Below the pieces are notes generated by a model. That model made no database searches. It saw nothing but the letters and a program-made list of their open reading frames with translations, and was not told where the DNA came from. This document shows positions 4,593 to 59,845 of a stretch of 64,000 nucleotides of DNA, piece by piece. The translations under genes and the position numbers were made by a program. Position 1 is the first letter of the stretch. Each line of letters opens with the position of its first letter. The stretch is taken from contig SJOL01006493.1 of assembly GCA_004794785.1 (NCBI GenBank), positions 811,824 through 875,823 of the forward strand. The letters are read 5' to 3'. The DNA comes from Opisthorchis felineus. Lineage: Eukaryota > Platyhelminthes > Trematoda > Opisthorchiida > Opisthorchiidae.

Positions 4593-4810
4593 GTTGTTAG
4601 CGTGCGTAGTGGAACGTAGCGACGGATCGGTGGTTGCGCGTTGAGTAGTTTTGCGTGTGAGTTAATATACGTGCTGCTAGCCGGGGTGATTCATCAATCA
4701 CGGTTGCTTGTTTGGTCGGGCGGTTCCGAGGTTGGTCTGTTATCCTGTGTCCTGATTGGTCGTTGACCAAGTGGACGTCGCAGGATTATAGTTCAAAGAC
4801 ATTAGTAGCA

Positions 4811-5269
4811 TTCTGGTTTCGTGAGAGACTCACCTGGAACCCAGCTGAATCCCTCGTTTGTGATGTTTCCATGCAACTGAACGTGTTGCACCAGGCCGCC
4901 TCATGTTCCAGTTGCTACGATAGTCGAGATATCGCGACCTTATGAGCAGTGCATTGCGTAAAATTACATGCATCGCGATATCTTGAATATCGTAGCAACT
5001 GGAACATGAGGTGGCCTGGTGCAGCACATTCAGTTGCATGGAAACATCACAAACGAGAGATTCAGCTGGGTTTCAGGTGAGTCTCTCGCGAAACCAACTT
5101 GATTTGCAAATGAGTGTATTTCTTGAAAACAGTCCAATTTGGGTTCAAGTAGAACATAAGGTTGACGAAAACTCGGGGACTGCGCCTGCCTGATGGGCCC
5201 CAAAAAGGGCGAAACCGGTCGTGGGCTGTCGAAGAATTTTCAGCAACCTTATGAGTAGTACATTGCGCA
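4811..5269 (+). mobile_element. Hammerhead-bearing repeat, inverted-plus-direct composite with TSD
   Basis: Flanked by 13-bp duplications ACATTAGTAGCAT (4799-4811 and 5270-5282, sharing the edge base). The left part, to 4936, is the unit's body in minus orientation (contains CTCACCTGGAACCCAGCTGA). From 4937 the complete unit runs plus: ACCTTATGAG, GGCCTGGTGCAGCACATTCA, TTCAGCTGGG, ATGAGTGTATTTC, the hammerhead at 5184-5226, then the first bases of a following unit. The duplication shows the whole inverted structure inserted in one event. No protein is encoded. Confidence 0.85.
5184..5226 (+). ncRNA. Hammerhead ribozyme with core mutation (A9 to G)
   Basis: Same fold as the 44339 and 57854 copies, with stem II GCCC/GGGC and stem III ACC/GGT intact, but the core reads CTGATGG (5190-5196). 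A9 is one of the invariant core bases, so this copy is expected to be inactive or very weak. Confidence 0.75.
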
Positions 5270-6066
5270 ACATTAGTAGCATAGTTATAAAGGCCAAACT
5301 TGGAGTTACTTCATTAAGCACTCTTAGGTGAAAACTGACGATACTAATGGGCCGTCCCATGTAATCACCCAAGCATATATATCCGTTTTCCCAAGGTTAA
5401 AAGCGCGCTCGTCTCCTGCTCTCACATACTGAATGCACACTCGGAGAGAACATATTTCGACTGTATGGTGTTGGCTTAGGAGGGTCAAATGTCTGGGGAA
5501 TAAGTGTTGTTTGAAATGCTTGTATGAGACATGCAATGGTGCAGTGCTTTTAGCTTTATGTGTGCTATTTAGTCAGATGCACTTCCACAGCTGCGCCTTA
5601 CGTTCAGATCCAGAGAAAATTCAGCTTCATAATTTAGCTACTTAAAACTTATTGGTAGTATGAGAGATATAACTGTCCACAACTCACCAGGTTGTGGGAT
5701 CGGAACAAATGTTGGCAATCTGCCGATCGATCGAGTCGACATCTATGTTTCATTTTGGTCCACACAACTCGGAGCAGAACGACAGTATTCTCAGTGGAAG
5801 ATGCTTAAAGAGGGCATTTTACTAAACATAATCAGAGCTTTGCTCAGCCCAATATTATGAAAGCCAATGAAAGTACCAGTATGAGTGATGCAAATAATAG
5901 AATAATTGATCAACATATAAAGTAATCTGTGTACATATGACTCGTAGAAAGTGGAAGAACATTCGTCTGTGTGTATTTGGTGGTTCTTATGAGTGCTGAT
6001 TGTTGGTGTATGTGTGTAGATGACATACTATCTGTTTCAACATTTTCGACGCTTTGGTCTGTCCAC

Positions 6067-6498
6067 CTATGAACATGTGTAGAAAAGAAGCTCCGGTAGA
6101 AATCCTCGGTCGACTTCCCCATGTTCCTGCCCATCAGGCGTTTCCCAGAAATGGAACAAAATTTCTTCAGAATCTCTATCTTGATTTTCTGAAGCGCTCG
6201 GCTTTAAACGGTGTGGACGTTTTGCATGAGATGCTGTACGCTGTGAAGATCGCCTAGGTCCTGCAACTCCGTCCACGACAGCACCACGATACGATATTCG
6301 CTTTGTGTTTGAAGTAGATGGGTTCTTTTCTCGAAGATAATCGTTTTGGCCACAAAATACCCGGACCTCAGGACGACCGAAGAAACCGATATAGAATGTT
6401 GACGAGTTTAAAGTGGCTAGTGTGGCACCTGAAACGGACTTAGGTCTGTCACACTGAAATGTCTGGACACTCAGCAGGTAACGCTGATATGCGAGAAT
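6067..6498 (-). CDS. BTBD-like gene, exon g: PHR C-terminus and stop
   Basis: 143 codons plus TAG. The acceptor is TATTGTACTTCAG/ATT. It opens with ILAYQRYLLSVQ and GATLATLNSSTFYIGF, corresponding to the family's V.....Y.A.A.L.G...YYG region. It closes with DRGFLPELLFYTCS, corresponding to the family's final G.IPE.IFY. Between them are about 60 extra residues rich in Arg, Ser and Lys. No canonical AATAAA is evident on the minus strand in the first 600 bases beyond the stop, so the 3' end of the mRNA is not defined. Confidence 0.85.
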   Translation of the reverse strand: MLAYQRYLLSVQTFQCDRPKSVSGATLATLNSSTFYIGFFGRPEVRVFCGQNDYLREKNPSTSNTKRISYRGAVVDGVAGPRRSSQRTASHAKRPHRLKPSASENQDRDSEEILFHFWETPDGQEHGEVDRGFLPELLFYTCS

Positions 6499-9400
6499 CT
6501 GAAGTACAATAAATGAAAACATGCCGTTACAGAAGGCTTGCTCAGCTCAATTTACAGTTATCTGAAAAGTTTGTATGAGTAAACAACAATGAAGAGGCCT
6601 AACAAGCACGACAAAATTCATATGAAAGCAAACACCGTATTGAATGTTTTACATAAGAATAAAGAACTGGAGTAACCGGTCAATTTCCTATTGCAGTTGT
6701 ATCACAACTTGGCTTAATCTTCCTGGTCGTGGCTCTCGAGAACAACCGACAACAATGCCAGAATAAGTACGTATAACGAGACGGATCAGCATTGCAATCC
6801 GCTTCTAAATCCGATGAATCAGACGCTATGGAAACATCATATAACAAGATTACAACTGCGAATTGACTGTTGGGTAAGGAAAGGGATTCTATTAAAAACG
6901 AAAACGAACATATTCGAAGTTCTGTAGGATATGTTAGGTGAACAGCAAAGTAACTAAAAGAAAAAGAGGACATTTTGCTACCAGCATACGTGAATTGACT
7001 GTATCGAAGTACCACTTTGGTCTCATAACAGACCATTTACGTCGACAACTGTCCGGCTTCTGAAGTATATTTAGCTAAAAATAAATCAGCTGCGTTTTTA
7101 CGAGCCTTCTCAGTCAAAATATGCTGAATCTATTTTCTACAAGTGGAAAAATGGGCTCCTTGAGTCTAGAAAAATCCTCAGTCAAATGGAATCTTATTGT
7201 GAAGTTAGTAAACGCCTGCATCTCCATCTCTGACTGTGGTAATCTGAGATGTAACAAACACATTTTACCCATGAAATCTGTTAAAAAGTCGCCTTAATAT
7301 CACGCACTCACCAGGATTCCTGGTTGAATTTGTCATTAATAGGCTTTTAAATTTGTGCACCTAATTTTGTGACCTATTTTAGTCTCTGCACTGTAAGGCA
7401 ATTTTGACATCTTGCATAGGCTTTGAACACCAATATTAGCTGGTAGAAACACTTGTATGAATTATTCTGGCAGCTTACCCCCAATACACTTCACAACAAA
7501 GACTGACCTTTGCAACAACCGCCTTTTGTGCTTATTTGTTTGTGTTCAATATACACAGAATTTGCAATTCGCACAGTGTGTTGGTGATGATGGATTGCCT
7601 GAAAGCATAAAATTGTCAGAGACCTAATGCTCCTTTTCACGAACAGTCTATTTTTTAGAGCACACATACTTAAAGGTATCGTTTGAGTAACGTTATGTTC
7701 TACTGCTAGAGGCCATTGGAGCAGAAAATTATTTCATGAGGGTTCTTTGATCAGATGACTCCAGCAACAAAGGGATGTAAGTATCTAAACACCTGAAGAA
7801 ACTAGCCTTTGGAAGCCATATTACAGCGAACACAACACAAGCATTTGGACCAGTGTGCTGCAGGCCCGATATGAAACAACGTAAAGTACACCATCTCACC
7901 CCGTCGAACGGCATTCTCCAGAAGTCATTGAAATGACTTTGACAGATAAGCGGTTATGAAGGAGAAGCACAGATATCAGGGTTGTCTTGAAACCTTCCTG
8001 TAAGGACAGACTCGATGGAAAGATGCTACTGGGAAAATAGAGGACACTAAAGATGGTGATTTGTTTATTCTCATCAACATCTGCACTAATGGAAATCATC
8101 AATAATTTTTGATAAAAACATGTAACACCTGGTGAATAGCCGTTAGGCTGGACTTCATTCAGAGTGTCCATCTCGCAGATTTCCTTCGTACCCAGGTAGC
8201 ATTATTTATCATCAGGCGGGATCCAGATGGCATCATTCTTCACTGAAAATGGCATTACCTTTACCCCTCTGAAGAAATGAGTTTTTCTCGATAACTTCTT
8301 CCAAGATGATTTCCATGCAAAACACCCATATTGTAGTTCTTGAGATTGACCTCAACAAAGCATGTTCCCTCTCATACCGCTAATTGAACCTTCGATAAGA
8401 TCGCAGAGGATGTTTGAGAAACCAAGCTCTCTTAGGTAAAAATACTACCACCACATTTAACGAGATACATGGTTGTATCACACATACTCAGCTAGACGAT
8501 GAGAAGTAAAAGATAGTTCCGTGATCGCCGCCACCATGGCTGCTTTAGTTAAGTCCATCACACGCAACAGCTGGCTAATGGACCGCTTCATCCAACTAAG
8601 CCTGAATTTTTGGATGAACTGGACATCTGTCAACTGCTTTTTTTTTGGGGGGGGGGGAGTAGAAATGTGTATAAAATTCACTCACACACTCACACTGCAA
8701 TCTGCCTCGTCTTCAGTATCATCTTATATTGATACTATGCGACATACATGTTCGTTTGTTTGTGAACTTCAAGGCTAGCTGATGTTGCTGTTGGGGGCCC
8801 TTACCGATTAGTAGCTGTAAGAGCTGCCTCCCTGCGAGGTTACCGGTAAAGAGGACCATAACTCCTCAAACAGTTTTTAAGCTAACTTTACACACCACGA
8901 TTTCGTGCACATTACCTATGTTTTCTTGCGGACATCCAGTTGGCTGGTCATGGTTTTGTCCAAGCCGTGACTACAACAGCTTCGTCCCTGTTGTTTTCGT
9001 GCCGAAATTTCGCTAGCAATTAGTTCTTTGTCATTACAAATTCCATATCCTTCCTCTATAGTGGCAGCCATGGGATTTACTAAACCAGCGAAACATGGTG
9101 AAGCCCTCCTATACCAACCAAACCTCAGCGATAGATTTTGCTGGGACCCATGAGGATCTTATTTTATACCTTTGAAGCAAGGGACAGAAGCAAACTCAGC
9201 CAAATTATTCACTTCTGACAGTGGTAATGGGTTAGTAATATAAATTGGAACAAGTACGTTTAGGAAGCCACTCCAGTGGCAGCAAGTATTGCACTATGCT
9301 GATACCGTAGATAAATCACAATGACTAAGAAAGTTTCCTATCATGAACTCCCAGATCCCGTTCTTTTCCCATACAGTTCTTTCGTTTGAACACACTGTTA

Positions 9401-18400: not shown

Positions 18401-21400
18401 CGTTAGTGGTGATGTGGACGAACAGATCCCGGACCTGCAGGATATACTGGTGTGATGAACTACGGCGATGTATTAAGCATGATAACCCAATTGCCCTGGG
18501 GGCAACCAACTATATCGGGATTGTAGTGTGCGTATGGTTCCCGAATGAATGGGCTCCAGAAAACAAGAGAAATACGAGTGAAGATGGTGGAGTAATTTAT
18601 TCGTAAGGACATTGTACTCTTCGTGTCACAGCGCGATCATTCGGTTTGGTCCTCGTCAGAATGGGGGGGGGCTTGGATGTAAGATTCCTTCTTAGTTGGG
18701 GTCACCAGTTGTGTCCTACCGGGAGTCCTGCTCAGGTCATGTGAGAGGAATCCAGTAGTACACAGTAGTACGCATTGACTACTTCGTATCGTAATGTTAA
18801 GGAAAATCTGGTGGACGGTTACGTAGACAACTAAATTTTTCAGCTTGTTGACTGACCATCTAGAGAGCTTCTTTAATGAAGCTGGTGGCATGACACGTAC
18901 GCAAAATATCAGTTCACGTTTTCCTCAAAAAGTGTAACTGTCCACTGATCTGCACCTTAAGCTAGTGTTAACGGGAGACTCAACTGAAAATGTCTTTTAT
19001 GAGATTTCAGTTGACAATGTTGTACAAAGGCCACTTCGTTTTTCGGTTTAGACGATATGCAAGCTACTGAAGTAGTTTTCTTAACATGACCCTACCTGTG
19101 GGGTGGATGAAAACGCGTCGACAGCTCAAAACGGGTTTTGCTCTTTTAGTGGTTTGCTAGGCAAACATAGCTTTCGAGTTTCTACAATATCGTTTCTTAC
19201 TTAGGTGGCCGGTTTAGCACTTCTTTTAAGAGTAGGGTTGGGCTTATATACAGCTAATCTTCAGGTAACATTAAGTCTATTTTAAAATTTGTATATGACT
19301 ACAATTAACCATCTAGTTCTGGAATGCAGATCTCGCCCCTTGAGCAGTTATCAACCACTTTTCCCAGTAAGCCAGTAAACTCCCGCCGATATTAGGTCTT
19401 CTAATTTATCATCATTTGCATATTCTTTCTCCGTAACAAAGGTTTCTTACCCAACACGGTCGTTTTGCATTCTTACTAGTAACCTAAATGGGCTCAGTTT
19501 TATCCTTCTTATGTCTTTTGAGTTCGGTACTATTGCACAACTCTCCGCGTGACTTGCTTCTCAATCTAACCATATTTAGCAAAATAGTGGCATGTATACA
19601 ACAAACAGACGCACCTATTTTGAATAGTTTGATTATTTGTTTATTATGACCGCTTCCAAAAGTGTGTAGCCGAAGAAGGAGACAAATGTATTACAAGGAA
19701 CTTTTCGAGGTTGAACAAACGCAGGGTTTTTTTCCTGACAGAACATCAAGCTTCGGAAAACCCCTCGACAACCCAATACCGGTTTCTCCCTTTTTGTGTC
19801 TCATCAGTTAAGCGCAGCGCCCGCGGTTCCACCGACTGACTGAACATCATATGTTACAATATACACTCATTTGCGGATCAAGTGTATCTTGACTGGAGAC
19901 AAATAAATCTTGCGTTTATGATATCCTTCAGTTGACTATACAAATATTGGCCCATGTTTTAGTTGGTATGATATTCAATGTATTCAAGGCATTCAAGGCG
20001 TGTTCTCTTGACAACACATTCAATTGAAGAATATCACAGACAAAAGATTTGTTGGAGTCTTTCGCTGACACCAATGTACTTTGTCAAACAAAGGAACTGT
20101 TCGCAAGAAGTTATCAACCGATTTGGAATATACTTCTTGTCGCCGACTTTCATTTTTCAGGATGGGAACTCTTCAATACATTGTGCACATGTGACCAGTT
20201 TCCTCGACTATTCTTCTCACTGGCATTGCCGGGTGGAAACCCATATATGGGCCGAGAGATCCCATTCACGGTTTTTGAAGCTTCCCAAGGTGCAGGAAAA
20301 GCGCCACAATGGAAATCAAACAGAGGAAAGGGAAAAAAAGAAACAATCCAAAGTTGAGTCGGCCCAGGTGTCATCTAGTCGTAAAAAACAGCTGTCAGAT
20401 GCGAAGTGACTTAAAGCAGTTCTTGGAACCGTTACAAAGTAGGCTTCACAGTCTTAGCCGCGAATTCAACCACATTACCCGTGTCGCGCGTTGTATAATG
20501 CGCAAGCAAACCGTCAGCCCAAGCATGGAAGTGCTAGGGGTCTTGATCTCAAGAAAGTGCTCAAGGAAGCACTGAAATTATCAGCGAACTACTGACCGTC
20601 TTGGTGAGTTGGAGAACTCACTAAGCGTTGACGCCTGTACTTAAGACAGTTTGGCCAAACTCTGACCGACGCCATTGGCTTTGAATATGCTTGGAACGGT
20701 TACTTTGCATGCGGGATCAGCTGCTATTTTATCTTTAGAATCCAATAGGTTTTCCCACCGGATGGCATGCTCGATGTTGGATGCTACTGATTACTTAGCA
20801 AACTTGACTTATTTGTCGCATGATCATAATGAAAACTAGGTCCGTTTCTCATGACCGCAGAAATGACTTTCGTAGCACCGAAAGAGAGTTTCTGTTGCGG
20901 TTTCTCTCTAAAAGTGATATCGAGGTAGGTCTTATTTAGCTTCTTCAAGGTCGCCTTAAAAACAACACTTAGTTGATAAGCTCAAGTAATTGACACTCCC
21001 CACTACTCTCGGCAAATATAGGTGTCTTTCAAGGGGGTGTCTCTCCTTCCTTCGTCGTTTATTTTTAAGTCATTGACATGCCAATGCCCAAATGTTTCAT
21101 TCAGTATAACTATACGATAGAAATCTTTTTTGTCGTACGTGCGGTATTCCTTAGCTTATGTGTATCTTATGTGAACCTGAAGGCCTGACTTCATGTCCAC
21201 ATGAGATGTTCATAATAGCGTTCACTGTCACTTAACGCCCTGGAGTGTTCCGTATTCAAGGAAAGCCATAAAATAGCCTGTTTGATAAACCCATTGCCTT
21301 AGCACGTGGTCCGAATTCCAACCATTCCGCATCAGCTTACTTCAGTCCCGACCTAAAGCTGACACCTTGACGTGGTGGTCGGGCTTGAGTACTGCAATGA

Positions 21401-24400
21401 TCCCGCGGGCTACACTGGCTGGAACGTCGTTCCACAAGGTGCAACCATGCCAGGAAGGCCAAAGGGGAGCAGTCAGACCAAGAGCAACGAGATCCCGTAC
21501 TACGAGTAATCGTGCTACGAGGCGGTCTGGAGGTAAAGTCGTACTGTCCTCTGTAGCAGGAGTGTGAAGGCAGTAAGGTGTTTCCCCCAGGCGACCAGCA
21601 TGTCCATATTTATGGAAGCAGCGATGCTGCCTTCCTCCGAGGAAGGACGGGTTAGAAAAGGTCGGCCCCAAAACCTGCACACTCCGATCGTCCAACGGTT
21701 GACCGTGACCGCCGGCGTATTATCCAATACGGTCCAAATACTTTTAAAACCAAAGAGTCCGGTGCTGCTCAAAAGGCACCTGCTGTGCGCAACCGCATCA
21801 GGAATGAGACAGTAATGCCTTATTCCCTGCGTCCCCGGGTTAGGTCAACCCCCTGCAGCCGAGCAGGTCAGACTATTGAGTCATCAGCTACGGGGAGGGT
21901 CCCCCAAGAAAACCCTACAGTCCACTGCCATGTGGGTCAGACTTTTGAGTCAAAGGCTCAAGGTGGGGTACCTCAACCAAACCCCCTTCCTCGGCCTGGG
22001 CAACCGGAAAGTATCATTTGCCCGCGCAGTCCGGTGTCCACCGATGTCCCTCCCCAACCCATTCCCATCACACAAGCAAAGGTCACTGGGTCACTTGACT
22101 GTCAGTTATCTGACCGAAGGGCCTTATGCTCCTCGCTGCTTAGTAACAGTAAACAAAATATTACCCTTCTAAATCCACGAGATCCTTTATATATAGGAGC
22201 TTTTAACGTCCGTGTTCTATGTCAAATTGGCAAACAGTTAATGCTTGCTGAAACCTTACACTCCCTTAAAATTGATGTATGCTGTGTCTCCGAAACACGC
22301 ATACAAGACCCAAGCGTGGTTATGCATCTCAGAACGCCAAGGATGAACTCCCCTCTTTCACATTTCTCCCTCCGTGATGATGATGACTCGTGGAATATAT
22401 GGCGTGGGAGTTGCACTCAGCCCCAGAGCTGAACGCGCTTCACTGGACTGGATCCCAGTGAACAGTCATCTTTGCGCCGTCCGGTTATTCAGTTCAATCA
22501 AGCTCAATGCCTCTCAACACAAAAAGCGGTGCCTGTTTGTAGTGTCGGCTTATGCCCCAACGGAAGGCAGTTCTGGTGCTGAGAAGGATACTTTCTATCG
22601 AGAGCTACCCGGGCTAATTCGTCGAGCCAAAAGCACTGGCACTGCGATCCTTGCGGGCGATATGAATGCTCAAGTAGGTCGTCTTAGCTCCTTGGAATTA
22701 CATTTGGGCGGTCGATTCGGTGTCGAGCTCGCCTCACAGACAACGAAGATCGACTCCTTCAGTTGTGTGCTGACCATGAACTGTTTTTGGCAAGTACGAA
22801 CTTTCAACATAAACGTTCGCATCGAGTAACCTGGCGGCCACCAACTGCAAATCGACCGTGGACCCAGTTGGACCACGTGGCCATCAGCCATCGGTGGAGA
22901 GCCACAATTCAAGACTGCCGTTCCTTCTGGGGCACACCACTTGATTCCGATCACGCCATGGTGCGTGCACGCCTGACAGTTCGCTTCCCTTCAGGCCCTC
23001 GCAAATTAGCAAGAAGCATGCCATTCTACTATCTTCGAAGAACGACCATAGCTCAACAGTACCGATCTGAGCTAGCCCAACAACTTTCCACAGTAAACCA
23101 ATACTGTCGTGACAGTGAGCATGTGGATGAAGCGTGGCAAAACGTGAAAGGAGCTATGTTAGCGGCGTTCAGTGCTGTCTGTCCGACCTCTCCGATTCGA
23201 CCAAAAGACCACTGGATGTCGGCGAGATCGTTATTCATGATTGAAGCCAGGAAATCCATATCAGCAGGCAACGAGTACGACGGCCCACGCAAATCCCTCA
23301 AACGCCAAATAGTGAAGAGTCTAAGGAAAGACCGAGAGCTATGGTGGACATCGAAAGCTCGGGAGATGGAGAAGGCTTTTGCTACGGGAAACAGCCGTGC
23401 CCTATATCAACTGATACGATCGACTGGCCCTAGAAAAGCAACGGTCAGCGAAACGATAAGTGAAAAAGATGGCTCATTAATTCACTCGCATAAATGTCGA
23501 CTGGAATGATGGGCCAAACACTTCGAAGAACAGTTCAGCTGGCCTCCTGCAACACAGCCTTTGCAGATAATGCATACGGGCGAATGGGATGTAAACCTCG
23601 ATCGCCCGTCAGAAGAAGAAATAAAGTACGAAATATCCGTACTGAAAAGTGATAAGGCACCAGGACCGGACGATCTTTATCCAGCCCTCTTCAGAGAAGG
23701 AGGAGAATCCCTGGTGACCCATCTGACAAAGCTTATTGGTGCTGTATGGAACGAACAGGTGCCTGCAGAATGGGGCAGGTCGACAGTTATCCCTATCTTC
23801 AAAAAGGGTACGCGGACGCTGTGCGAAAACCACCGTGGCATCAGCCTGTTAGCTGTGGCATCGCAGGTGCTCTCTGGTCTTATCCTTCGAAGTTTGACTG
23901 CACATAGGGAGAGACTGACAAACCAATGTAGGTTCCGTCCTGCAAGAGGATGCATTGATCACATCTTCACCCTCCGACAAATTCTGGAACAGCGAGACTG
24001 CTTCCAGCAACCAGCAATGGTTGTATTTCTTGATCTGAAAGCTGCCTTTGACTCTGTGGACCGTCAGGCACTATGGCAGTGTCTGGGGAGCAGAGGTGTC
24101 CCCCATAAATTCTTGACCCTCCTTAAGGCGCTGTACGCCAACTCCCGCGGCCGTGTGAAGGTCTACGGGAAGCTCTCTCCTGAGTTCACCACATCAAGTG
24201 GTGTCAGAGAGGGCTGTTCTCTTTCACCCTTCCTCTTCAACTTCGTCATCGATACGACCATGGAAGACTCACTGTCAGCCTCTAATGCCCGTGGGGTCGA
24301 AGTGCTTCCTGGGCGTCCGCTCACAGATATCGAGTACACAGACGACATAGCTCTTCTTGGATCTGACCCCGTGGTAATTCAAACAATATTAAATAATCTA

Positions 24401-27400
24401 AATAATTCCGCCTCACGGTTTGGCATGCGCTTCATACCTGCAAAGTGTAAGGTGCTACTGCAAGACTGGGTGGACCCGAACCCTAGCCTCATGCTTGCGG
24501 ATGAGCCGATCGAGGTAGTAGACAAATTTGTCTACCTGCGCAGCTGCATCAGTGTCAGCGGTCTCGCGAAAGATAACGTTTCCATCCGGATTGGGATGGC
24601 TAGAGCAGCTTTCGTGAACCTGCATCACCTGTGGCATAGGCGTGACATCAGCTTATCCGTCAAGGGTCGAGTTTACAATGCTGCGGTGCGCTCCATACTA
24701 CTATACGGATCAGAAACCTGGCCGTTGCGCGTCGAGGACGTCAAAAAACTTTCAGCGTTTGACCATCAATGCCTTCGGAGCATTGCGCGAGTCCGGTGAG
24801 AACACTGGATCAGTAATGCTGAAGCATGTCAAAGGATTTTCGGAAGAAACAACTCGTTCACGATTGATGAACTGAGCACACTCCATAGGTTGCGCTGGCT
24901 TGGCCACGGGCTCCGTATGCCACCCGACCGACTTCCTCGAAGGGCTCTTTACGCACAACCACGTGAAGGGTGGAAACGAGCCAGGGGAGGTCAAACAATC
25001 ACTTGGCAGCGAAGTATGAAAGCCATTACCAGCAAACTCAGCTGTGCTGGTCATTGCCGCCTTCCTGGATGGGGACCCCGAGACGGGCCACATAAATGGT
25101 TGGAGACATTGTCAGACATGGCGCAGTCGCGCCCTCAATGGCGCTCGTGCATCCAAGCTATTGCCTTCAATCAATAGCTCCCTTCCCAATCCCCTCACTT
25201 GACAGTCCACTGACAGTGCTCCATTTATGCACCAATTTATCAGCTCCCGCCTCCAATGCGCAGCTACCTACCCCACCTCCCCAAATCATCGGTGAACGAA
25301 ATTGTGGCAGCTACAACCACTGTACGACAAGTACGCGGTTGTTACAGCTGACGATGTTGATGGTGATGATGAGCTTACTTCAGATTAATCACCTCAACTG
25401 AGCCCAGACGGTTCAGCCCATGTTAAGTCCTCTTTCATTTGTGTCAGATGACTCATTCTTTAACCGTAAGCCGAGGTTTATCCTTGGGTATGTGCACCAA
25501 TGTGGAAATCTTCGGATTACTTGAGATACGATACTGCCTCGCGAAACGGTGTGAGAAACAATCTTTAAGATGCAGTGGAATTTAAAAGAATACTCTTGTT
25601 CACTTCGGAGTAAATCCGAGAAGCAAACTTCCCATACAGTCTTCTGATTTTAGAATCAAGAGAACATACTACGGGTCATCAACCCAAATATCTCGATATG
25701 CTAGGTGGACGATAATTTCGTTATGACGAAAATAACTCACACACAAAATCGACACGGATTGTTCAATACGACGTTTGGAGGCACTACCTTTATAACTGAA
25801 ACTAAAGAGAACAGTCGAACTCCGACCAAAACACAAAGGCACCCGTGAGACTGTACGGGCTTATCTGATCCAGAATTTTGGTTGACTTTCTATCACAAGA
25901 ATGGCATGACGAAGGGAACAAGCACAGGGCAAGTTCTTTAGAGTTCTTTAGTTCTTTTCGTTAGATCTTATAGACGAGGAATGTGGATTGCTGTTGGTCA
26001 TACCGATCCGTACTGCCTCGCCGAGATATATCGTTTGCCTTTTTTTAGAACACACAGTCAATTTTCTTAATTGTGTTGGATCATATCTATGGGTGTTCTA
26101 CTTCACAAAGGCTTGGAAGCATCTGGTAATGATTATTCAGTCTTATTGGAGTAGCCTTCAGGGTCCTAAAGATAAAGCCGCATGATACCACGGTTATTGT
26201 GAAGTTCTTTCACCGTTTTTGAATGTGCTTTACTGTGGATGCTGTTGGACTGAATCGGTCTCACTACTAGCAACAACAGCTTAAGAAATTTCATCGGAAG
26301 GCACTAACATCTGTGCGTCACTTGGGTGTAAGTTGTTGGGTTTCATTACGTAGATGCTCGGATTTTGTCCCAAACTCTAGTCTTTCTTCAGCCTAGTGGT
26401 GCATGGTATAACACCTCACTACCCATTAGAAGCCTCATTTCTGTCTCACTCAGAAACGAATGTGCTGCGGTTTTTGGTTTCAGGCATGCTAAACAATTTT
26501 CCACTTTTTGCCCTCAAGGTCCACAGTTAATTTCCCCACATAGTCCAAAACAGATAGTTTCTCCGTGGGGTAAAGTTCTAACAAATCATCGCGTTTGGGA
26601 GATGTTAACCACAATGGAGGACATTGTCATATGGTTGATCAATTCTGCATATACACTCATGATAGGCAAGCCCTGCATTTGCCGGGTCCACAGTCCGTAT
26701 AAACTGACAATACTGTCCACAATGACAGAACTAGTAACTTATGGACCAATATGATCAGAGCACACCAAGTTTTTACCGGCCACTTTGATTCCAATCTAAA
26801 TAGTCCACTATGTTCGGCATGTAGTTTTTTTCTTTCTGTCATTTGACTTAGCCATACTTACCCACCTAGGGGTTGAACAAATTTCAGTATTTTTGTAACT
26901 GTGCAGGTTATTTGATAAATCTGCTTCCCTCAGATTTTTATTATGTCGATGAAAAAGTTCATATCACACTTAAATACATGCGAAGAACTTGAAAGGTTAT
27001 GGACGGGGAAACAAATGTGGATTTCATATAGTGATTTTCTTTTGCATCCCTAATTTCGGGCCTCCATGTTACTAATACAAAATACCTAATATCTTTAGAC
27101 AACGTATGGATACAAAGTATTTTTAACTCCTTCTAAGGATACCTTTCATCCTGCTATGGTTTGAAATTCTGAAGAGGAATTATTTTCTATCAGACCGGCA
27201 ATTATAGGCTTTTATCGTAAATCCCCAATCCCGGATTTGTAGTTTAAGAGAGTAAGGAAAGATGTTGTGGGTATTCGCTGGATTTACTGAACTTCTGGCT
27301 TGTGACAGAACGTAAAAGAACTTCAAAATTATAAGTCTGCAGAGGTGCTGAGAGTAGGTGTGATTCGGAATGTTCTGAGTGAAATGGATGTTTTGGATGA

Positions 27401-30400: not shown

Positions 30401-32050
30401 ATCACATTCGTTGGATCCATTCGGCGGATCACATTCGGCGGATCCATGTGCTCTCGCCACCGCTCTGTTTGTTCAACTGGTTTGTAATGGTTCTGTAGTG
30501 AGAATCTACTCGATATTTTCTGGACCGTCATTTATCGACTTCTGATTAAAAAACGGAAGACGGATATTGTGAACTCCACTTGGAACAGCGTGGGGGAACA
30601 AGGTTATCATAAAAGGATGGGAAACCACAGTAACGGAGTAGACCAGTGTCGGATATCTGTCTGTCTAGCGCCCTATAGGGCAATTTGTCACCTACATCGT
30701 TCCGTTTGTTCACCATTACTACCAAACATTTCCAAAATTAAATAACCGAAACTAGCTTGCTGTCGATAGGAAGTTGGTAGCTCAGGTTCTGTACACTGAG
30801 GTGGGCAAATTGGTTGCACACGTTTCGTCACTAACTGAGGTGATATCAGCAGTGCGTTGTAGTGATGAGTGGTTGTTGTGAGAAACACTCCACACCTCCA
30901 AAATTGTCTCCTCAATAGAGTTGCTTCTCTAGGAGTGTCTCCTCGAGGGAGAAATAACCAGGTTAACAGATGGCTGCTCATATCCTACCACCATTGAACG
31001 ACATCAAAATGTGGTGCGGCTTTAGCGAAATACACTCATTTGCATACCAATTTGATTTTTACGTGAGACTCACCTGGAACCCAGCTGAATCTCTCGTTTA
31101 TGATGTTCCTCCGTAATCCCAATTTCCTCAGTCTAACCAGGCTTCATCGGATTGATTTATTTGGACGGAACAATTTTGTGACAGAGATAAGAGATGCGAT
31201 TACAGGGTATGAATTACTGACCAGAGCTTGTCACATCAAAGGTTAATGAACTTACCCTTGGGTGTATATCCGGAACGCGATACTCCGTGTGCTGTTCAGA
31301 AGTGCGTGAATGCATTTCCGCTACCGGACCATAGAACATGGCCTCAAATACAGGTGATGCGGTGGCGAGAATGAGACGATGGGCTGCGAAACGTTTGCAT
31401 GGTGTATGTTGCATGGCGGAAACACGGTGCGACTGACTAACTGGTGATTCCACTGAACCAGATTTTGTGATGGCGTTATCTGGAGCTGATTCCTCATGGT
31501 TAGAAGGTTCGCCCACAGAGTTACACGATTGAACACGAACCTGGTGAATAAATTCACCGTCAGTTTCCGAGAGACCTCTGAGTGATTCATTCTCAGGACA
31601 TGACGTTGAGAGAGGTTGGTCGCGGGGTGCGATGAGAGCCCGCTCAGTAACACTCCGCGCTTGTTGTGCCTCGTTGGTGATGTCATCTAAGTCGGAATTA
31701 AGATCCAGTTCTTCTTGATTTTCCTGACCATCCTCAAGTGAGTTGTAACTGCAAACCAGGTTCGACACTGCATGTTCACGGTCACTGATACCCATGCCGT
31801 TTGACCTCTCAGGGGGTGAACTGGACTGCTCGTGTTGCACTTTGGGTATTAACTCTGTCCCTCTTGGGGATCTTGCATACAACTGCATACCCGTCGGGCC
31901 GCCCGGTGCGCCTGGGTCCAAGGGTTCAAAACTTGGAAACATGGAGTTAGTATCCAAATCACTCGCACCACCAACTATGAACCAAACGTCTGCGAAACGT
32001 TCACTTTGAAGCAGTCGGTGCCAAAGAGATTGAGGTCCTGAACAGCCAGC
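6067..32050 (-). CDS. BTB-BACK-PHR protein, BTBD1/BTBD2-like, seven visible exons (5' end missing)
   Basis: Join, minus strand: 32050-31256, 29538-29398, 29310-29209, 28326-28048, 18434-18084, 13027-12569, 6498-6067. Every exon length is a multiple of three (795, 141, 102, 279, 351, 459, 432), every intron is phase 0 and GT-AG, and the frame stays open for 852 codons before TAG at 6069-6067. Domains in visible-residue numbering: split BTB (about 19-320), BACK (about 313-455), PHR (about 527-852). Family knowledge: BTBD1/2/3/6 proteins have this order and are regarded as cullin-3 ubiquitin-ligase substrate adaptors. The BACK segment (RDTL, VRRWAGAEC, LVRFPTMTL) looks closest to BTBD1/2. Oddities are about 190 extra residues inside BTB and about 95 inside PHR. 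The initiator codon must lie upstream of 32050, because an in-frame TAG abuts the exon as part of the acceptor. Function is inferred from family only. Confidence 0.88.
6499..12568 (-). other. Last intron of the BTBD-like gene (6.07 kb)
   Basis: GTAAGT at the 5' end and TGTACTTCAG at the 3' end. Contents noticed are the T9-G11 run and purine-rich sequence around 11190-11440. No coding exon, LINE or hammerhead was recognised. Confidence 0.75.
8638..8657. repeat. T9-G11 homopolymer junction
   Basis: Nine T followed by eleven G in the 6-kb intron of the BTBD-like gene. The G run could be a sequencing or assembly weak point. Confidence 0.9.
12569..13027 (-). CDS. BTBD-like gene, exon f: PHR domain, first half, with basic insertion
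   Basis: 153 codons, phase 0 on both sides, acceptor ACTTTTGCAG/GTT and donor GTGAAA/GTAAGT. It starts VSAPIFLSGIGVYGS...LNVTVELKH, the PHR signature (relatives: IFVVGFGLYGS...Y.V.I.LK). Where relatives continue directly, about 95 residues are inserted, ending with a basic cluster KRKKK (visible residues 673-677). The domain then resumes with IVSDGSTRVYDVTFPCPVK, matching the family's SDGS.T..V.F..PV. The basic run could be a nuclear-localisation signal, but this is untested. Confidence 0.85.
15536..15766 (-). other. Cys-rich open frame in intron, unrecognised
   Basis: Minus-strand open frame of about 70 codons ending TGA at 15538-15536, with seven Cys in a secreted-domain-like spacing (TGCLVDCFG, ETDCFKG, YACGYRCPEPNANCF). 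A TTCTTTTCTAG tract and a later GTGCAGACAG could be acceptors, but I see no partner exon and no signal peptide. It sits in the intron between exons e and f of the BTBD-like gene, same strand. It may be a lone exon, a decayed retrocopy or chance. Confidence 0.2.
15894..16240. mobile_element. Inverted pair of SM-alpha-like SINEs with hammerhead
   Basis: Two copies of one repeat face each other: 15894-16036 in minus and 16102-16240 in plus orientation, separated by 65 bases, so the transcript could fold into a hairpin of about 140 bp with mismatches. Shared blocks are CTACTAGCCGG, GAGGTCGCGGGTTCGGAG (B-box-like) and GTTTCGTGAG, followed by the ribozyme region. The minus copy carries an intact hammerhead (15936-15978). 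In the plus copy the equivalent core reads CTGATAA and TAAA and is dead. The tRNA-like head plus hammerhead recalls the schistosome SM-alpha repeat. It lies in a 5-kb intron of the BTBD-like gene, whose strand matches the intact copy. Confidence 0.75.
15936..15978 (-). ncRNA. Type-I hammerhead ribozyme, SM-alpha-like, intact core
   Basis: Minus strand: stem I CACTG/CAGTG (15978-15974, 15940-15936), core CTGATGA (15973-15967), stem II TCC/GGA with a T-T mismatch at its base (15966-15953), GAAA (15952-15949), stem III ACAG/CTGT (15949-15942) and A17 at 15941. Predicted cleavage is between 15941 and 15940. Both five-pair stem I and four-pair stem III are fully Watson-Crick. Stem II is the weak element. 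Being in the sense of the BTBD-like pre-mRNA, it could cut that intron. Confidence 0.75.
16241..18083. other. Intron sequence without recognised content
   Basis: Part of the 5,056-nt intron between exons e and f of the BTBD-like gene. Short open frames on both strands look like chance. The stretch 13028-15535 of the same intron is also featureless apart from a CG-poor open frame at 13478-13843 that I do not recognise. Confidence 0.6.
18084..18434 (-). CDS. BTBD-like gene, exon e: BACK end, linker and start of PHR
   Basis: 117 codons, phase 0 on both sides, acceptor ATCCTGCAG/GTC and donor TTCCAG/GTGAGT. The first residues, VRDLFVHITTNDFTGLP, continue the BACK domain (relatives have V.SLFLHFTVN.KP). 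A polar linker of about 65 residues rich in Thr, Ser, Glu and Gln follows, longer than in vertebrate BTBD2. The last 30 residues, including VWRCSRF and HQHRISFQ, begin the PHR beta-sandwich. The join to exon f restores the family pattern: a strand, then a Phe-Leu/Val-x-Gly-Ile/Phe-Gly motif. Confidence 0.85.
18435..21333. other. Intron sequence left of the RTE LINE
   Basis: Holds the hammerhead remnant at 19771-19813. Overlapping plus-strand open frames at 19978-20575 have a Lys/Glu-rich stretch (EEREKKKQSK) and a helix-like DLKQFLEPLQSRLHSLSREF; these could be a decayed retroelement ORF1, but nothing confirms it. Confidence 0.4.
19771..19813 (-). ncRNA. Degenerate hammerhead remnant
   Basis: Minus strand CTGATGA (19807-19801), then GACACAAAAAGGGA, GAAACCGGTA. 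The order matches the 308-bp repeat's ribozyme, and the flanking CCCCTCGACAACCCA matches its 3' side. Stem II no longer pairs at its base. It lies inside the 9.6-kb intron of the BTBD-like gene. Confidence 0.6.
21347..21433 (+). ncRNA. Candidate HDV-like self-cleaving ribozyme at the LINE 5' end
   Basis: The first templated bases, CCCGACC (21347-21353), are exactly complementary to GGTCGGG (21377-21383), giving a 7-bp P1 that starts at the element boundary. Immediately inside, ACC (21364-21366) pairs with GGT (21374-21376) to make a 3-bp P3 with a 7-nt loop. No base separates P3 from the P1 return strand, as in HDV. The 10 nt between P1 and P3 would hold J1/2 and the P2 strand. A hairpin TGGAAC-GTC-GTTCCA (21419-21433) could serve as P4 and is followed by CAAGG, which could hold the catalytic C. 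I could not settle P2. HDV-like ribozymes at the 5' ends of R2 and RTE-type LINEs are established; this copy's activity is inference. Confidence 0.5.
21785..25177 (+). pseudogene. RTE endonuclease-reverse transcriptase, frameshifted
   Basis: Endonuclease: IGAFNVRVLCQIGKQ and CCVSETRIQD (about 22196-22310), AILAGDMNAQVGR (about 22645-22683) and SDHAMV (about 22950). Reverse transcriptase: DKAPGPDDLYPALF, GISLLAVASQVL, FLDLKAAFDSVDR, REGCSLSPFLFNFVID and the catalytic box EYTDDIALLG, where most relatives have EYADD. The C-terminal region includes GSETWPLRVED, HRLRWLGHGLRMP and WLETLSDMAQ. Breaks are a frame change near 22375-22395, a one-base shift near 22735, TGA at 23507-23509 (an Arg codon in relatives) and TGA at 24797-24799 (Trp expected). 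The final stop is TAG at 25175-25177. The frame upstream of the endonuclease is Pro/Ser rich and its true start is unclear. Catalytic residues remain readable, so decay is recent to moderate. Confidence 0.9.
25384..28047. other. Intron sequence right of the RTE LINE
   Basis: No gene, SINE or ribozyme recognised. AGTTCTTTAG is repeated in tandem near 25931-25955. The plus-strand open frame at 26365-26754 has no family resemblance I can name. Confidence 0.5.
28048..28326 (-). CDS. BTBD-like gene, exon d: BACK domain
   Basis: 93 codons, phase 0 on both sides. The acceptor is TTGAACAG/GCC; a second AG closer to the conserved block was rejected because it breaks phase. The donor is ATG/GTAAGC. 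It encodes VLSSPGLLEMD, LLQRDTLNCKESEVFAAVRR, WAGAECVRLGL and RFLPLVRFPTMTLNDFA, all typical of BACK in BTBD1/2. The intron before it is 882 nt; the one after is 9,613 nt and holds the RTE LINE. Confidence 0.93.
29209..29310 (-). CDS. BTBD-like gene, exon c: BTB-BACK junction
   Basis: 34 codons, phase 0 on both sides, acceptor CTTTTCCAG/GAA and donor GTGCTG/GTATGT. It encodes ELITASNVCLMLDR, then LFFDEEDLTRRCWHVIDV. This matches the family's N-A-C...L..SRLF-E..L..RCW.VID pattern, which opens the BACK domain that orients a cullin-3 adaptor's substrate module. Confidence 0.92.
29398..29538 (-). CDS. BTBD-like gene, exon b: BTB core
   Basis: 47 codons, phase 0 on both sides, acceptor CACCAACAG/GCC and donor AAG/GTAGGT. 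It encodes AFETMLHYVYTDEIQL followed by VLYAAKKYMLAPLGQRCVEH, the central BTB helices that are the most recognisable part of BTBD1/2/3/6 proteins. The intron to exon c is only 87 nt, the shortest in the gene. Confidence 0.92.
30814..30856 (-). ncRNA. Hammerhead-like motif, mutated copy
   Basis: Homologue of 4551-4592. Minus strand reads GCACTGCTGATATCACC, then AGTGACGAAACGTGTGC. The core A6 is C and stem II has one mismatch, so it is probably inactive. It lies in the 1.7-kb intron of the BTBD-like gene. Confidence 0.4.
31027..31108 (-). repeat. Fragment of the hammerhead-bearing repeat body
   Basis: Minus-strand fragment with GAAATACACTCATTTGCATA, GAGACTCACCTGG and AACCCAGCTGAATCTCTCG on the plus strand. 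It lacks the ribozyme part. A variant hammerhead-like motif lies about 170 bases to its left (30814-30856); the same neighbourhood is seen at 4551 and 4811. It is in the 1.7-kb intron of the BTBD-like gene. Confidence 0.75.
31256..32050 (-). CDS. BTBD-like gene, exon a: BTB N-terminal half with long insertion
   Basis: 265 codons. The acceptor is a pyrimidine-rich tract ending CATGTAG before GCTGGC; the donor is CCAAGG/GTAAGTTC. The start encodes RFADVWFIVGG, the conserved first strand of the BTB fold (residues 18-28). The next conserved piece, KRFAAHRLILATASPVFEAM, appears only at residues 219-238, where relatives have about ten residues between the two. The 190 intervening residues are rich in Ser, Glu, Asp, Pro and Asn and look disordered. 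The exon ends with YRVPDIHPR, which leads into exon b exactly as in relatives. The reading frame has no interruption, so the insertion is translated unless a cryptic intron removes it. Confidence 0.88.
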
Positions 32051-38269: not shown

Positions 38270-38587
38270 TCATAAGTACGTTTCCTCAAGAAAATATAAT
38301 GCGATATTCCAAATATCGTACCAAGTGAAGCATGAGTCGGCCTTTGTCTAGGGCATTTTGTTGAAGAATATTAGAAAGGAGAGATTCAGCTGTGATCCAG
38401 TTGCGTCTCCCGTGAAAACCAACTAGATATGCAAATCAGTGTATTCGGCGAATTTTGTACAAGCTGGGTTCAAGTAGAGTATAAAGCTGACGAAAACTAG
38501 AGGACTGTGCCTGCCTGATGACGCTGTATAAGAGCGAAGCCGGTCGTGGGCCGTCCGAGAGTTTTCAGCAACTCTATGAGTAGAACT
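38270..38587 (+). repeat. Hammerhead-bearing repeat, single diverged unit
   Basis: Plus-strand copy of the 308-bp unit, starting near CATAAGTACG and ending AACTCTATGAGTAG. Recognisable blocks are ATTCAGCTGTGATCCAG, ATATGCAAATCAGTGTATT, GGGTTCAAGTAGA and GACGAAAACTAGAGGACTG. Its hammerhead (38507-38551) has a disrupted stem II and GAAG in place of GAAA, so it should not cleave. No target-site duplication was recognised. Confidence 0.75.
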
Positions 38588-43985: not shown

Positions 43986-44166
43986 GATGGGTTCAAGTAT
44001 CTCGTGTAACTTTGATTATCCAACCCGGGAAGAATATAATCCTAAGCGATTGGGAAGTTGAGCAATAAACCTCTGTTCGGGATGTCATGATAATTCCACA
44101 TTTTCACCGAAAGTATGCCAAATACCCGGGAAGTTTTGACCTCACCCGTAATAAAATGGGATTCCC

Positions 44167-44424
44167 GAAATACATTCATTTGCGTACCAATTTGGTTTTG
44201 ACATAAACGAAGGATTCAGCTAGGTTCCAGGTGAGCCTCCCGTCAAAAACAAATTGATATGCAAATGAGTGCATTTCGCTAATTTCATGTAATTTGGGTC
44301 CAGGTAGAACATAATGTTGACGGAAACTGGGGGATTGCGCCTACCTGATGAGCCCCAAGAAGGGCGAAACCGGTCGTGGGCTGTCGAAGAGTTTTAAACA
44401 ACTTTATAAGTAGTGTATTACTTC
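44167..44424 (+). mobile_element. Hammerhead-bearing repeat, partial unit with inverted left end and TSD
   Basis: Flanked by perfect 15-bp duplications TAAAATGGGATTCCC (44152-44166 and 44425-44439). About 38 bases at the left end are in minus orientation (CATTTGCGTACCAATTTGG); from about 44205 the sequence is plus, beginning inside the unit (AAACGAAGGATTCAGC) and running through an intact hammerhead to TTTATAAGTAGTGTATTA. Same family as 4811-5269, but more diverged. Confidence 0.87.
44339..44381 (+). ncRNA. Type-I hammerhead ribozyme, intact core
   Basis: Stem I has six pairs (44339-44344 with 44376-44381). The core is CTGATGA at 44345-44351. Stem II is GCCC/GGGC (44352-44355, 44362-44365) with a 6-nt loop. 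GAAA is at 44366-44369. Stem III is ACC/GGT (44369-44371, 44372-44374), and C17 is 44375, so predicted cleavage falls after 44375. All invariant core bases are present. Stem III has no loop in a monomer, so two molecules may pair through the ACCGGT palindrome, as proposed for other short-stem-III hammerheads. Compared with the 57854 copy, one stem I position changes from G-U to A-U, which preserves pairing. Confidence 0.85.
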
Positions 44425-44730
44425 TAAAATGGGATTCCCTACACTGAGACACTCATTCTGACCTTTTGCAGGGAAGATCACGGTGTTCAATTTGTTTAGA
44501 AGTGCAATTGTCTGGCAAGGTCTGGCAAGAACAGATCTACTTCACTATATTTTTACCACATCTGGGTACCAGCTTTCCAACAGAGTAGTGGGAATTTACT
44601 GTGTCAAGAGTAAATCTCGCCGAACGAAGTGCAATATGGCGTTTTCGACTACCTCTGTGGTCGGATTATTTGGCGCCTTACAAGCAGCAGCTTTACGAAT
44701 AGATTCAATCAATAAAAGATTCTGACTAAC

Positions 44731-54513: not shown

Positions 54514-54685
54514 TAGCTCGAGACAGCTCAGTGGTTAAGACAGGAATGTCCGTGGTTCGAATCTGACCCCTAGTGTGTAGGCTTGGGTAACCTGGAAGTA
54601 TTCCAGCCTTCGTGCTACCATCGGGTGGCGCCGCTGCTAAATACCGAAAGGGTGTCACGTCTAAGCCATTATTATTACTATTTTT
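54514..54685 (+). mobile_element. tRNA-derived SINE, full length with target-site duplication
   Basis: A 172-bp insertion flanked by perfect 12-bp duplications ATGTGGTAGTCC (54502-54513 and 54686-54697). The head has an A box (CAGCTCAGTGGTTAAG, about 54524) and a B box (GGTTCGAATCT, about 54554) of an RNA polymerase III promoter. The body includes GCTTGGGTAACCTGG and TCGGGTGGCG, and the tail is ATT repeats plus T. Its antisense translation yields the junk peptide often seen in fluke gene predictions (GQIRTTDIPVLTTEL), which should not be called a gene. Confidence 0.9.
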
Positions 54686-57227: not shown

Positions 57228-57400
57228 AATGCACTCATCTTGCACGTGACCGTCAAAGGTTCGAATCCAGGTACCGCAGAAAATATGCATTGCTAACTAG
57301 CTGTACACAGCTTGAGCCTAGTGATTCCTTTCTGCCTTGGACCAGCCCTAATCACCGCATTGAGAAGGGGAGGGGATGGCTCAAATGAGGATGATAGAGA
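57228..57400 (+). mobile_element. tRNA-headed SINE, same family as 33591
   Basis: GGCGGTAATGCACTCATCTT, GCACGTGACC and GGTTCGAATCCAGG give a clear B box, and TACCGC pairs with GCGGTA as an acceptor stem would. It is not a functional tRNA: the anticodon arm does not form well and the sequence matches the SINE head at 33591 base for base in many positions. A hammerhead-like CTAACTAGCTGTACACAGC downstream is too decayed to call. Confidence 0.6.
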
Positions 57401-57508
57401 AACAAAGTTAAATTTGTGTCACTTTTATACGCACTCATCCGACCAAAACAGGTGAGCATTAATTTTACGCAATGTACTGCTCATAAGGTTGCTGAAGATT
57501 CTTCGACA

Positions 57509-57551
57509 ACCCACGACCGGTTTCGCCCTTTTTGGGGCTCATCAGGCAGGC
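57509..57551 (-). ncRNA. Type-I hammerhead ribozyme, intact core, minus strand
   Basis: Minus strand: CTGATGA at 57545-57539, stem II GCCC/GGGC (57538-57535, 57528-57525), GAAA at 57524-57521, stem III ACC/GGT, C17 at 57515. Stem I keeps six pairs including three G-U wobbles. Predicted cleavage is between 57515 and 57514. It is the inverted partner of the ribozyme at 57854. Confidence 0.83.
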
Positions 57552-57853
57552 GCAGTCCCCGAGTTTTCGTCAACCTTATGTTCTACTTGAACCCAAATTG
57601 GACTGAACCTTATGAGTAGTACATTTCGTAAAATTACATGCATCGCGATATCTCGAATATCGTAGCAACTGGAACATGAGGCGGCCTGGTGCAGCACATT
57701 CAGTTGCATGGAAACATCACAAACGAGAGATTCAGCTGGGTTCCAGGTGAGTCTCTCACAAAACCAAATTGATTTGCAAATAAGTGTATTTCTTGAAAAC
57801 AGTCCAATTTGGGTTCAAGTAGAACATAAGGTTGACGAAAACTCGAGGACTGC

Positions 57854-57895
57854 GCCTGCCTGATGAGCTCAAAAAGGGCGAAACCGGTCGTGGGC
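57854..57895 (+). ncRNA. Type-I hammerhead ribozyme, intact core
   Basis: CTGATGA at 57860-57866. Stem II is GCTC/GGGC with one wobble and an A5 loop (57867-57879). GAAA is at 57880-57883, stem III ACC/GGT at 57883-57888, C17 at 57889. Stem I has six pairs (57854-57859 with 57890-57895). Relative to the other copies one C is missing from stem II, but four pairs still form. Confidence 0.83.
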
Positions 57896-59845
57896 TGTCG
57901 AAGAATTTCCAGCAACCTTATGAGTAGTACATTTCGTAAAATTATATGCATCGCGATATCTCGAATATCTTAGCAACTGGAACATGAGGCGGCCTGGTGC
58001 AGCACATTCAGTTGCATGGAAACATCACAAACGAGAGATTCAGCTGGGTTCCAGGTGAGTCTCTCACAAAACCAAATTGATTTGCAAATGAGTGTATTTC
58101 TTGAAGGTGAGCACTACGTTCATCCACAACGCAACTGCTGGCCAATCGTTCCTGATGCATTAGAAGGGTGCCTTGTTTTGATACAGCCGGCTCGGAAATT
58201 CAGCAGAGTAAGGAAAGTGAAAAACGAGGCTTAACATTACGGGACGGTATACAGTGTCTTCTAAGTGAAACTTAAGTGCCATAGAACAACTGTGTCATGC
58301 CAGCAAGTTTACAGCTCCATACGGTATCAGTGACTATTACTGGTTACAAAATATGTTTTGAGCGCGTATGAGTACTGAACTATCAGTGTGGAAGAAATTG
58401 GGTACCACCGTATGCTCTTCATTCTGTTTTTTTAATACAGAAAACATATAAAAAAGTTTTCGCTTCATTTGTTAAAGCCTTCATCATGAGAGTGTCCTAT
58501 GTGCCCATGGAGAAGAAGCCATGTCATTTCACTCGCAGTATGTATGATTTAGCAAAGGGCGATCGTAGTCCTTCGATATTTTGCTGTCTGGAGTGTTCCT
58601 AGAAGCATTGAAGAGCGTTTCGTGAGACTGGAAGTAGAAGGATCATTCTGGCCTGCTTAGCATGGTGCAAGTTTGCACGCTCTGCTTCACTAAATGTAAA
58701 GACTTTTGTTCTCTACGGATTATAACTGGTAATTACCTGAGGCTGACAAAATAAGGATTCTCTTCGCTATCCACATGCTCACTACAGTGCAGTATAAATG
58801 AAAATCGTGTCTTTTCTAAACTGCTAAACTAATTTATCTTGTCTCTAACTTGGAGCTGATGCTTGTTATTGCACACTGAATACACGGAATTCATTTGCCT
58901 TGTGTGAACAGTGTGCGCTGAATTTGCTGACCTCCAAAGAAACCAAATCAGGGGATATTACCTTGAAGGAGCGACAACTTCCGATTGGCCATTTAAGCTT
59001 CTGTCAGTTTTAAGTGCCCTGAAGAGAACCATTCTCGGCTCAGACTAGAAGCTATATTTTGAAGAAAATTGCGACTAAAATTCTCCTTACAAAGGACCTA
59101 GTTAGGTCTTCTGTTTCTGAGGAGGGTAGCCATTACAGGTTGATTGTACCATAGTGGGCGACGTTCTCCGGGATTGCATAGGGTGAGTTATTCGGATTTC
59201 ATCCATGTGAAGCATACAGACGAAATGGTTATAAGCTACGTCCTCGACTACACTTCCTTCTAAACTCATTCAGCGCGGTTCCTTGGGTCTCCGATGTTGA
59301 CATGTCTAAGACCGCCTACTTCCGAAAGTTCAGCAGATGTTTTGATGTGGCATGCAAAAAACGTCCCACGCTCATCAACACGTTCTCCAACCGTTCGCGG
59401 CTGCCATACATTAGTTATCCTTCACATGTCAAGGTCCAACAGCTGTCCCTATTGAAGCCTTCGGTGGCTGTTTGAATCATAAGCAATATGGGGCTTATAG
59501 AGTACATTATCTATTTTCTTCTAAGTCAGCACTCCATTAACCATCTCCTCAAGCAGACCATCCTTCCTATTTGATTCCTTTGCTCCCCATATTTCTATCT
59601 GAACCCTCGCTTGACTTGGTGGTTCAAATTTCGGGGTAAGCAAAGAGTGAGCAGTTTCGTTTCAGTGTGCTTGTGGTCTTATACCCAAACATACCAAAAG
59701 TCACGGATCACATAACAGACCCTATGAAACGGAACTTCTATGTAAACCCAGAAATGGTGATCTTAAAAAAGTTCCAAAACAAAAATCCAACGTAAAAACG
59801 TAACGCACCACCCACAAAGATGCTGAAAACTTTTTGAAGAAGAAC

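Follow-up and report, generated by a model that had tools for sequence, protein, structure and literature searches.

A window of 64,000 nucleotides, the whole stretch of DNA analysed here, from the trematode Opisthorchis felineus (GenBank assembly GCA_004794785.1, contig SJOL01006493.1; C1072:811824-875823) contains three copies of a dispersed, apparently non-coding repeat that we interpret as a probable metazoan retrozyme, a hammerhead-bearing retroelement without long terminal repeats (LTRs). Positions on its unit are counted from the inferred hammerhead cleavage site, starting with the base that follows it, and two sites on the unit, A (about 213) and B (about 49), 143 or 166 nt apart, recur as the outer ends of copies. 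Copy 1 lies between target-site duplications (TSDs) of 13 bp (ACATTAGTAGCAT, 4799-4811 and 5270-5282) and consists of an inverted arm on the minus strand (4812-4936), whose outer end, at unit 187, falls a little upstream of A, and a direct arm on the plus strand (4937-5269), which ends at B (unit 49). Copy 2 is bounded by TSDs of 15 bp (TAAAATGGGATTCCC, 44152-44166 and 44425-44439), with an inverted minus-strand arm (44167-44200) ending at A (unit 211) and a direct plus-strand arm (44201-44424), of an older subfamily with a hammerhead core, ending at B (unit 49). In copy 3, with TSDs of 9 bp (AGGTGAGCA, 57450-57458 and 58105-58113), it is the inverted minus-strand arm (57459-57605) that ends at B (unit 57) and the direct plus-strand arm (57606-58104), of about 1.6 units, that ends at A (unit 215). 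The list of the window's open reading frames (ORFs), which holds frames of at least 150 aa, has none inside the three copies.

The three copies and the lengths of their TSDs, reported by a first-pass annotation made from the letters alone, were re-found by sequence and by TSD search, as was the inverted arm adjoining the direct arm in each. The description of the copies as inverted on the left and direct on the right proved arbitrary, because a copy consists of two arms whose sense 3' ends point outward, and it is the two outer ends together that are fixed. The shared start of two direct parts was seen correctly in copies 1 and 3 (unit 26 and 25); a shared inner junction does not extend to the wider set described below, where inner ends are scattered, and the near-identical start is for this reason probably a coincidence.

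To describe the element beyond the window, we searched the genome (630 Mb in 1848 contigs) with a query from copy 3, which gave 5257 first-look candidates, and with a query from the diverged copy 2, which gave 4579; the best 40 of each were scored. Candidate copies in the genome thus number in the thousands. We read 39 places from the copy-3 list, 20 of the 39 from the copy-2 list and the three window copies, 62 loci in all, and a Viterbi segmentation against one genomic unit resolved these into 72 copies or fragments, 35 with two arms and 37 with one. A TSD was considered clear at a score of at least 7, which 32 of the 72 copies reached, as against 3 of 600 null pairings of flanks taken from different loci. 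Thirteen base pairs is the most frequent length (10 of the 32), followed by 14 bp (four), 9, 11, 12 and 15 bp (three each), 8 and 10 bp (two each) and 16 and 22 bp (one each). The 59 genome places and three window copies, with clear TSDs in 32 of the 72 copies, bear out the claim that these are dispersed insertions and not merely a satellite; the expectation that copies generally combine a TSD with an inverted segment was borne out in part, with two arms in 35 of 72 and a TSD in 32 of 72, each slightly less than half of a similarity-ranked sample. Both occur together in 20 of the 72.

The arms follow a strict arrangement. All 35 two-armed copies are head-to-head, with the sense 3' ends outward, and none is tail-to-tail; the longer arm may be the A arm or the B arm. 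Among copies with a clear TSD, the A outer ends fall at unit 187-217 (mode 213, n = 30) and the B outer ends at unit 23-57 (mode 49, n = 22). Of the 20 two-armed copies with a TSD, 19 pair A with B, and the remaining one, window copy 1, pairs B with unit 187; the combinations A with A and B with B do not occur among them. One-armed copies with a TSD end at A in ten cases and at B in two, and those without a TSD (n = 25) end at A in 12, at B in 10 and elsewhere in three. The composite at L013 has main arms ending at units 54 and 217, yet the counting rule scores it as one-armed. An apparent hot spot of inner ends at unit 113-137 (32 of 97 inner ends) was rejected as biology, because the two search queries start at unit ~119 and ~137 and favour arms of this kind. 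Arms cross the cleavage site in 41 of 42 cases for B and in 33 of 55 for A, raw counts that were set aside for the same query bias.

The sequences at the junctions carry a further signal. When the opening eight bases of each TSD are compared with the unit sequence that would follow an A end, 122 of 240 positions agree, where permuted TSDs give 75.5 (sd 6.8; none of 2000 permutations as high); the corresponding values are 67 of 176 beyond B ends (permuted 51.3, sd 5.5, p = 0.0035) and 35 of 96 beyond 12 free 5' ends (permuted 25.7, sd 4.0, p = 0.02). This resemblance of TSD bases to the adjoining unit sequence, seen at both outer ends, is the trace that would be expected if target-primed synthesis had begun from both strands, aided by short complementarity to the RNA. 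Where the two arms meet, microhomology of at least 2 bp is present at 17 of 32 gap-free junctions, against 15% expected, three gapped junctions having been set aside. A cleaved linear monomer would limit B arms to about 49 nt; secondary B arms exceed roughly this length in 11 of 12 cases, or in 10 of 11 without L057, whose B arm is the query match. The template would therefore have been a circle or an uncleaved multimer, and the data fit both. At some loci near-identical units are strung together in arrays, the longest of about 11, and units differ by a median of 0 within arrays and of 3 between loci, with one array (L072) showing 1 difference internally and 25.5 to other loci. The larger arrays mostly show little variation between their units (L011, L013, L014, L016). 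The array at L009 is mixed, with up to 11 differences, and mixed arrays suggest template switching or a mixed source array. Within the array at L018 (1556-2894), units stand 16-17 bases apart, as if two templates had been copied.

The unit itself is 309 bp long in 59 of 66 complete units, which confirms the approximate size of the first estimate, 308 bp, and corrects its exact value. The type I hammerhead attributed to it is present, although below the database threshold and with an altered core (CTGATGG) in the direct arm of copy 1. At the gathering score, Rfam has no match in the window; below that score of 52, HH9 matches copy 3 on the plus strand at 57845-57908 with 25.1 bits (E = 5.6e-4). 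One of the hammerheads of copy 3 has a shortened stem II. A pattern search for the core gave 164 matches, 130 of them with unaltered CTGATGA and GAAAC, a count in which window copies figure twice and some matches are due to chance. The 81 nt around the HH9 match fold no more stably than shuffled sequences (z = -0.26). By inspection, helix III consists of one A-U pair under a CCGG palindrome; for the axolotl retrozyme, published work describes a similar helix III, of one pair with a palindromic tetraloop cap, and a hammerhead that cleaves better as dimers (PMC7229834). The predicted circular fold of one unit reaches -97.1 kcal/mol, against -76.5 for shuffles (sd 4.6, z = -4.5). In this fold, predicted from one sequence, A and B lie at two sides of one helix end, as a single ribonucleoprotein would require, and part of that helix has a pairing probability below 0.5. 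A covariation analysis gave any double change in 4 of 34 predicted pairs and a covariation term of -0.18. A common motif at A and B (ATGAGT...) did not rise above shuffled sequence in the unit, stood at the 4% level among window pairs and is not claimed. In a diverged copy at 38301-38586, a single example, stem II has an entirely different sequence that is still able to pair, and GAAG replaces GAAA; in the four copies fetched with this sequence as query, those cores that were found have the usual stem II.

The fixed pair of outer ends has a counterpart in the Penelope-like elements (PLEs) of the same genome. A survey with a PLE reverse transcriptase (RT) query gave 2873 candidates, of which the best 150 were scored; among these, 23 RT matches lie in stop-free frames of at least 800 aa, four of the frames exceeding 2000 aa and being too long for one element, and PLEs paired by coordinates are head-to-head in six cases, tail-to-tail in one and on the same strand in four. 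The PLE at L076 has an ORF with RVT_1 (49.8 bits) and GIY-YIG (24.3 bits, cut-off 22.6) domains, both above cut-off, and begins with a minimal hammerhead-like motif; an Rfam ribozyme search of six other GIY-YIG loci gave no match at E 1. Among the best 120 of 490 matches to the PLE protein, the closest by identity is from Opisthorchis viverrini (90% over 53% of the query), with Clonorchis sinensis at 88% over 58%. An anatomy like that of the retrozyme, with head-to-head arms that end at one start site on one side and at a second on the other, was found at four of eight PLE loci. At C1522, C841, C845 and a mini-PLE in L028, one end lies at a site S1, near position 2300 of L076, and the other about 40 nt further, and the flanks share strings of 11, 13, 12 and 12 bp, respectively, as counted without a null. 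L077 holds a near-perfect PLE palindrome of 5.3 kb (72-5401) beside runs of N, a possible assembly artefact.

We propose that the element is a metazoan non-LTR retrozyme, with a 309-bp unit and a type I hammerhead, that was probably inserted by PLE machinery, and we put the probability of this reading at roughly 0.68. The traits of a retrozyme found here are the hammerhead core, a tandem unit within the range of 170-400 bp, the absence of LTRs and dispersal; those of PLE insertion are the TSD-bounded head-to-head segment and the placing of one end at each site. Because the copies contain no RT frame (neither an RT nor a GIY-YIG ORF among the frames of at least 150 aa in the three window copies), the element itself would not be a PLE but at most a non-autonomous partner. 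In the proposed sequence of events, retrozyme RNA, circular or multimeric, would be bound by the PLE RT/GIY-YIG protein, perhaps as a dimer, and both target strands would be nicked about 13 bp apart. One target 3'-OH would then prime at A and the second at B, both sites being internal to the RNA and not at its end; the two complementary DNAs (cDNAs) would extend to differing lengths, covering one unit or several, and be joined in the middle, and a single cDNA would leave a one-armed copy. More tentatively, and at somewhat less than even odds, this may reflect a general rule, in which the PLE RT complex primes once per target strand, using a separate site of the folded RNA for each of the two, and the cDNAs are joined head-to-head. 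Animal retrozymes might then serve as the short interspersed elements ("SINEs") of PLEs: circular or multimeric RNAs reduced to a ribozyme and the two start sites.

Several observations weigh against this proposal. Clear TSDs are lacking in 40 of the 72 copies, and the 15 two-armed copies without one are less regular, with six pairing A and B, four B and another position, three A and another position and two A with A. The sample was drawn from the top of the two candidate lists, each ordered by likeness to its query, and this biases the fractions, arm lengths and one-armed share; the pairing of A with B is affected less. The units are unlike inside one array at L018 (differences up to 17) and at L030 (up to 11). 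Among the PLE loci, C795 has S1 on one side while its other arm extends past S2, C860 has S2 at the right while its left arm ends elsewhere, and C143, without a match to the reference, and C1743, a near-perfect palindrome beside N, could not be scored. The one PLE family compared with the unit shares nothing with it beyond 14 bp (E about 0.015), and a PLE sharing the element's sequence, which the first-pass annotation had suggested looking for, was not found in the comparison with L076 and L077.

The alternatives differ in the enzyme or in the template that they invoke. If the template was never circular, the PLE would copy long multimeric transcripts of arrays, and the hammerhead would be irrelevant to insertion. 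Such a template would suit the arms that cross the inferred cleavage site and the unlike units in the L018 and L030 arrays, and in published work on the Anolis PLE, mutants of its ribozyme left insertion in vitro unchanged, with unprocessed RNA as the apparent main substrate (PMC11167929). The near-homogeneity of most larger arrays is, however, what repeated copying of one circle would give, and circles are published for other animal retrozymes (PMC7229834). We regard a purely multimeric template as possible but less likely than not. The unit might instead be a deletion derivative of a PLE, that is, the repeated pseudo-LTRs (pLTRs) of an unsampled PLE family and no retrozyme at all. PLE pLTRs measure about 200 bp (PMC3846280) and come with minimal hammerheads and tandem copies, and few of the 2873 PLE candidates in the genome were read; we nevertheless consider this origin unlikely, given that searches with the unit's DNA returned copies of the unit, that L076 and L077 share at most 14 bp with it and that, with one PLE family as query, no PLE frame was noted beside the arrays except a different PLE in L046.

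A further alternative is mobilisation in trans by a long interspersed nuclear element (LINE), with the inverted arms as products of ordinary twin priming. The earlier reading had offered Penelope-like pLTRs or twin priming for the inverted end of a retrozyme-like element; the wider data favour the former. Twin priming yields a 5' inversion inside a TSD and is expected to leave a variable second priming point. In all 20 two-armed copies with a TSD, the second point falls at unit 23-57, with a mode of 49, and either arm may be the longer one. Classical twin priming is unsupported because the second end is fixed at B and is not random, and we disfavour a LINE as very improbable, even though one with RVT_1 (RT at 23510-24799) is present in the window and reviews list LINEs among the candidates (PMC11722881). 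The idea of an ordinary satellite spread by recombination, with inversions as chance rearrangements, could appeal to the tandem arrays; it is hardly credible beside dispersed copies with TSDs, fixed outer ends and matches between target and template, and is likewise disfavoured.

Compared with known systems, the element resembles the metazoan non-LTR retrozymes (PMC7229834) in its apparently non-coding unit within the range of 170-400 nt, type I hammerhead, occurrence from dimers to multimers, low G+C and larger TSDs when these are present, and platyhelminths are among the carriers named; inverted arms and fixed outer ends are not described in the excerpts of that work. It shares with PLEs (PMC3846280, PMC11167929) the head-to-head inverted terminal segment, the TSD, the tail on one inverted pLTR (PMC3846280), the apparent start of reverse transcription at two internal sites, from which the PLE protein cuts and extends both target strands (PMC11167929), and a minimal hammerhead, and differs from them in having no evident protein or ORF between repeats and in the spacing of its sites, 143 or 166 nt against about 30-40. 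In another trematode, Schistosoma, W36.2 has a unit of 333-335 bp that resembles the SINE-like SMalpha and is also dispersed on autosomes, and some W families carry functional hammerheads (PMC8490949). Compared by description only, the W elements differ in that the excerpts give a possible TSD for one W25.2 element and no head-to-head anatomy or start-site rule. Plant LTR retrozymes (PMC4918200) are likewise hammerhead-bearing, non-autonomous retroelements with circular RNA, and differ by a type III hammerhead, LTRs, a 4-bp TSD and a suspected Gypsy helper. The enzyme that mobilises animal retrozymes is left undecided in the literature, with LINEs and PLEs as candidates (PMC7229834, PMC7761336, PMC11722881), one of these papers noting that the repeats have no conserved motif from which to deduce the helper, and little is said to be known of PLE integration (PMC11167929). 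From sequence alone, PLEs are favoured as the mobiliser by the fixed pair of A and B ends, the length of the TSDs and the corresponding anatomy of PLEs in this genome, and insertion scars like those of the local PLEs point to the enzyme that copies animal retrozymes. In the accessible portions of the open-access literature we found no report of a two-armed, two-site anatomy in a retrozyme. What is new would thus be the evidence for PLE-type insertion and the rule of one end per site, the class of element being already known. The end pair, TSD length and likeness to PLEs offer a simple test for retrozymes of other genomes, and the rule, if true, constrains how PLEs integrate.

Four additional fragments of the element lie in the window. 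The diverged copy (about 75%; 38301-38586, plus strand) has its 3' end at unit 41, at B, and two fragments at 31027-31107 (minus strand) and 59843-59911 (plus strand) have theirs at A (unit 211 and 210). The fourth, of 46 bp (19778-19823; 83%), ends at unit 308, adjoining the inferred cleavage site and not A or B. PLE fragments occur near retrozyme copies in L028, L031 and beside window copy 1, a proximity that may be due to chance. The fragment beside copy 1 (4515-4773) is 82% identical to L076 2040-2299 and ends at S1, about 40 bp to the left of the copy; another (30790-30858; 83% to L076 2219-2287) lies about 170 bp from the retrozyme fragment at 31027-31107. At L046 (1601-2190), a retrozyme with a 13-bp TSD starts at or inside the tail of a PLE copy. 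The LINE remains of the window extend over 21656-24799 in overlapping frames, which include the RT domain given above.

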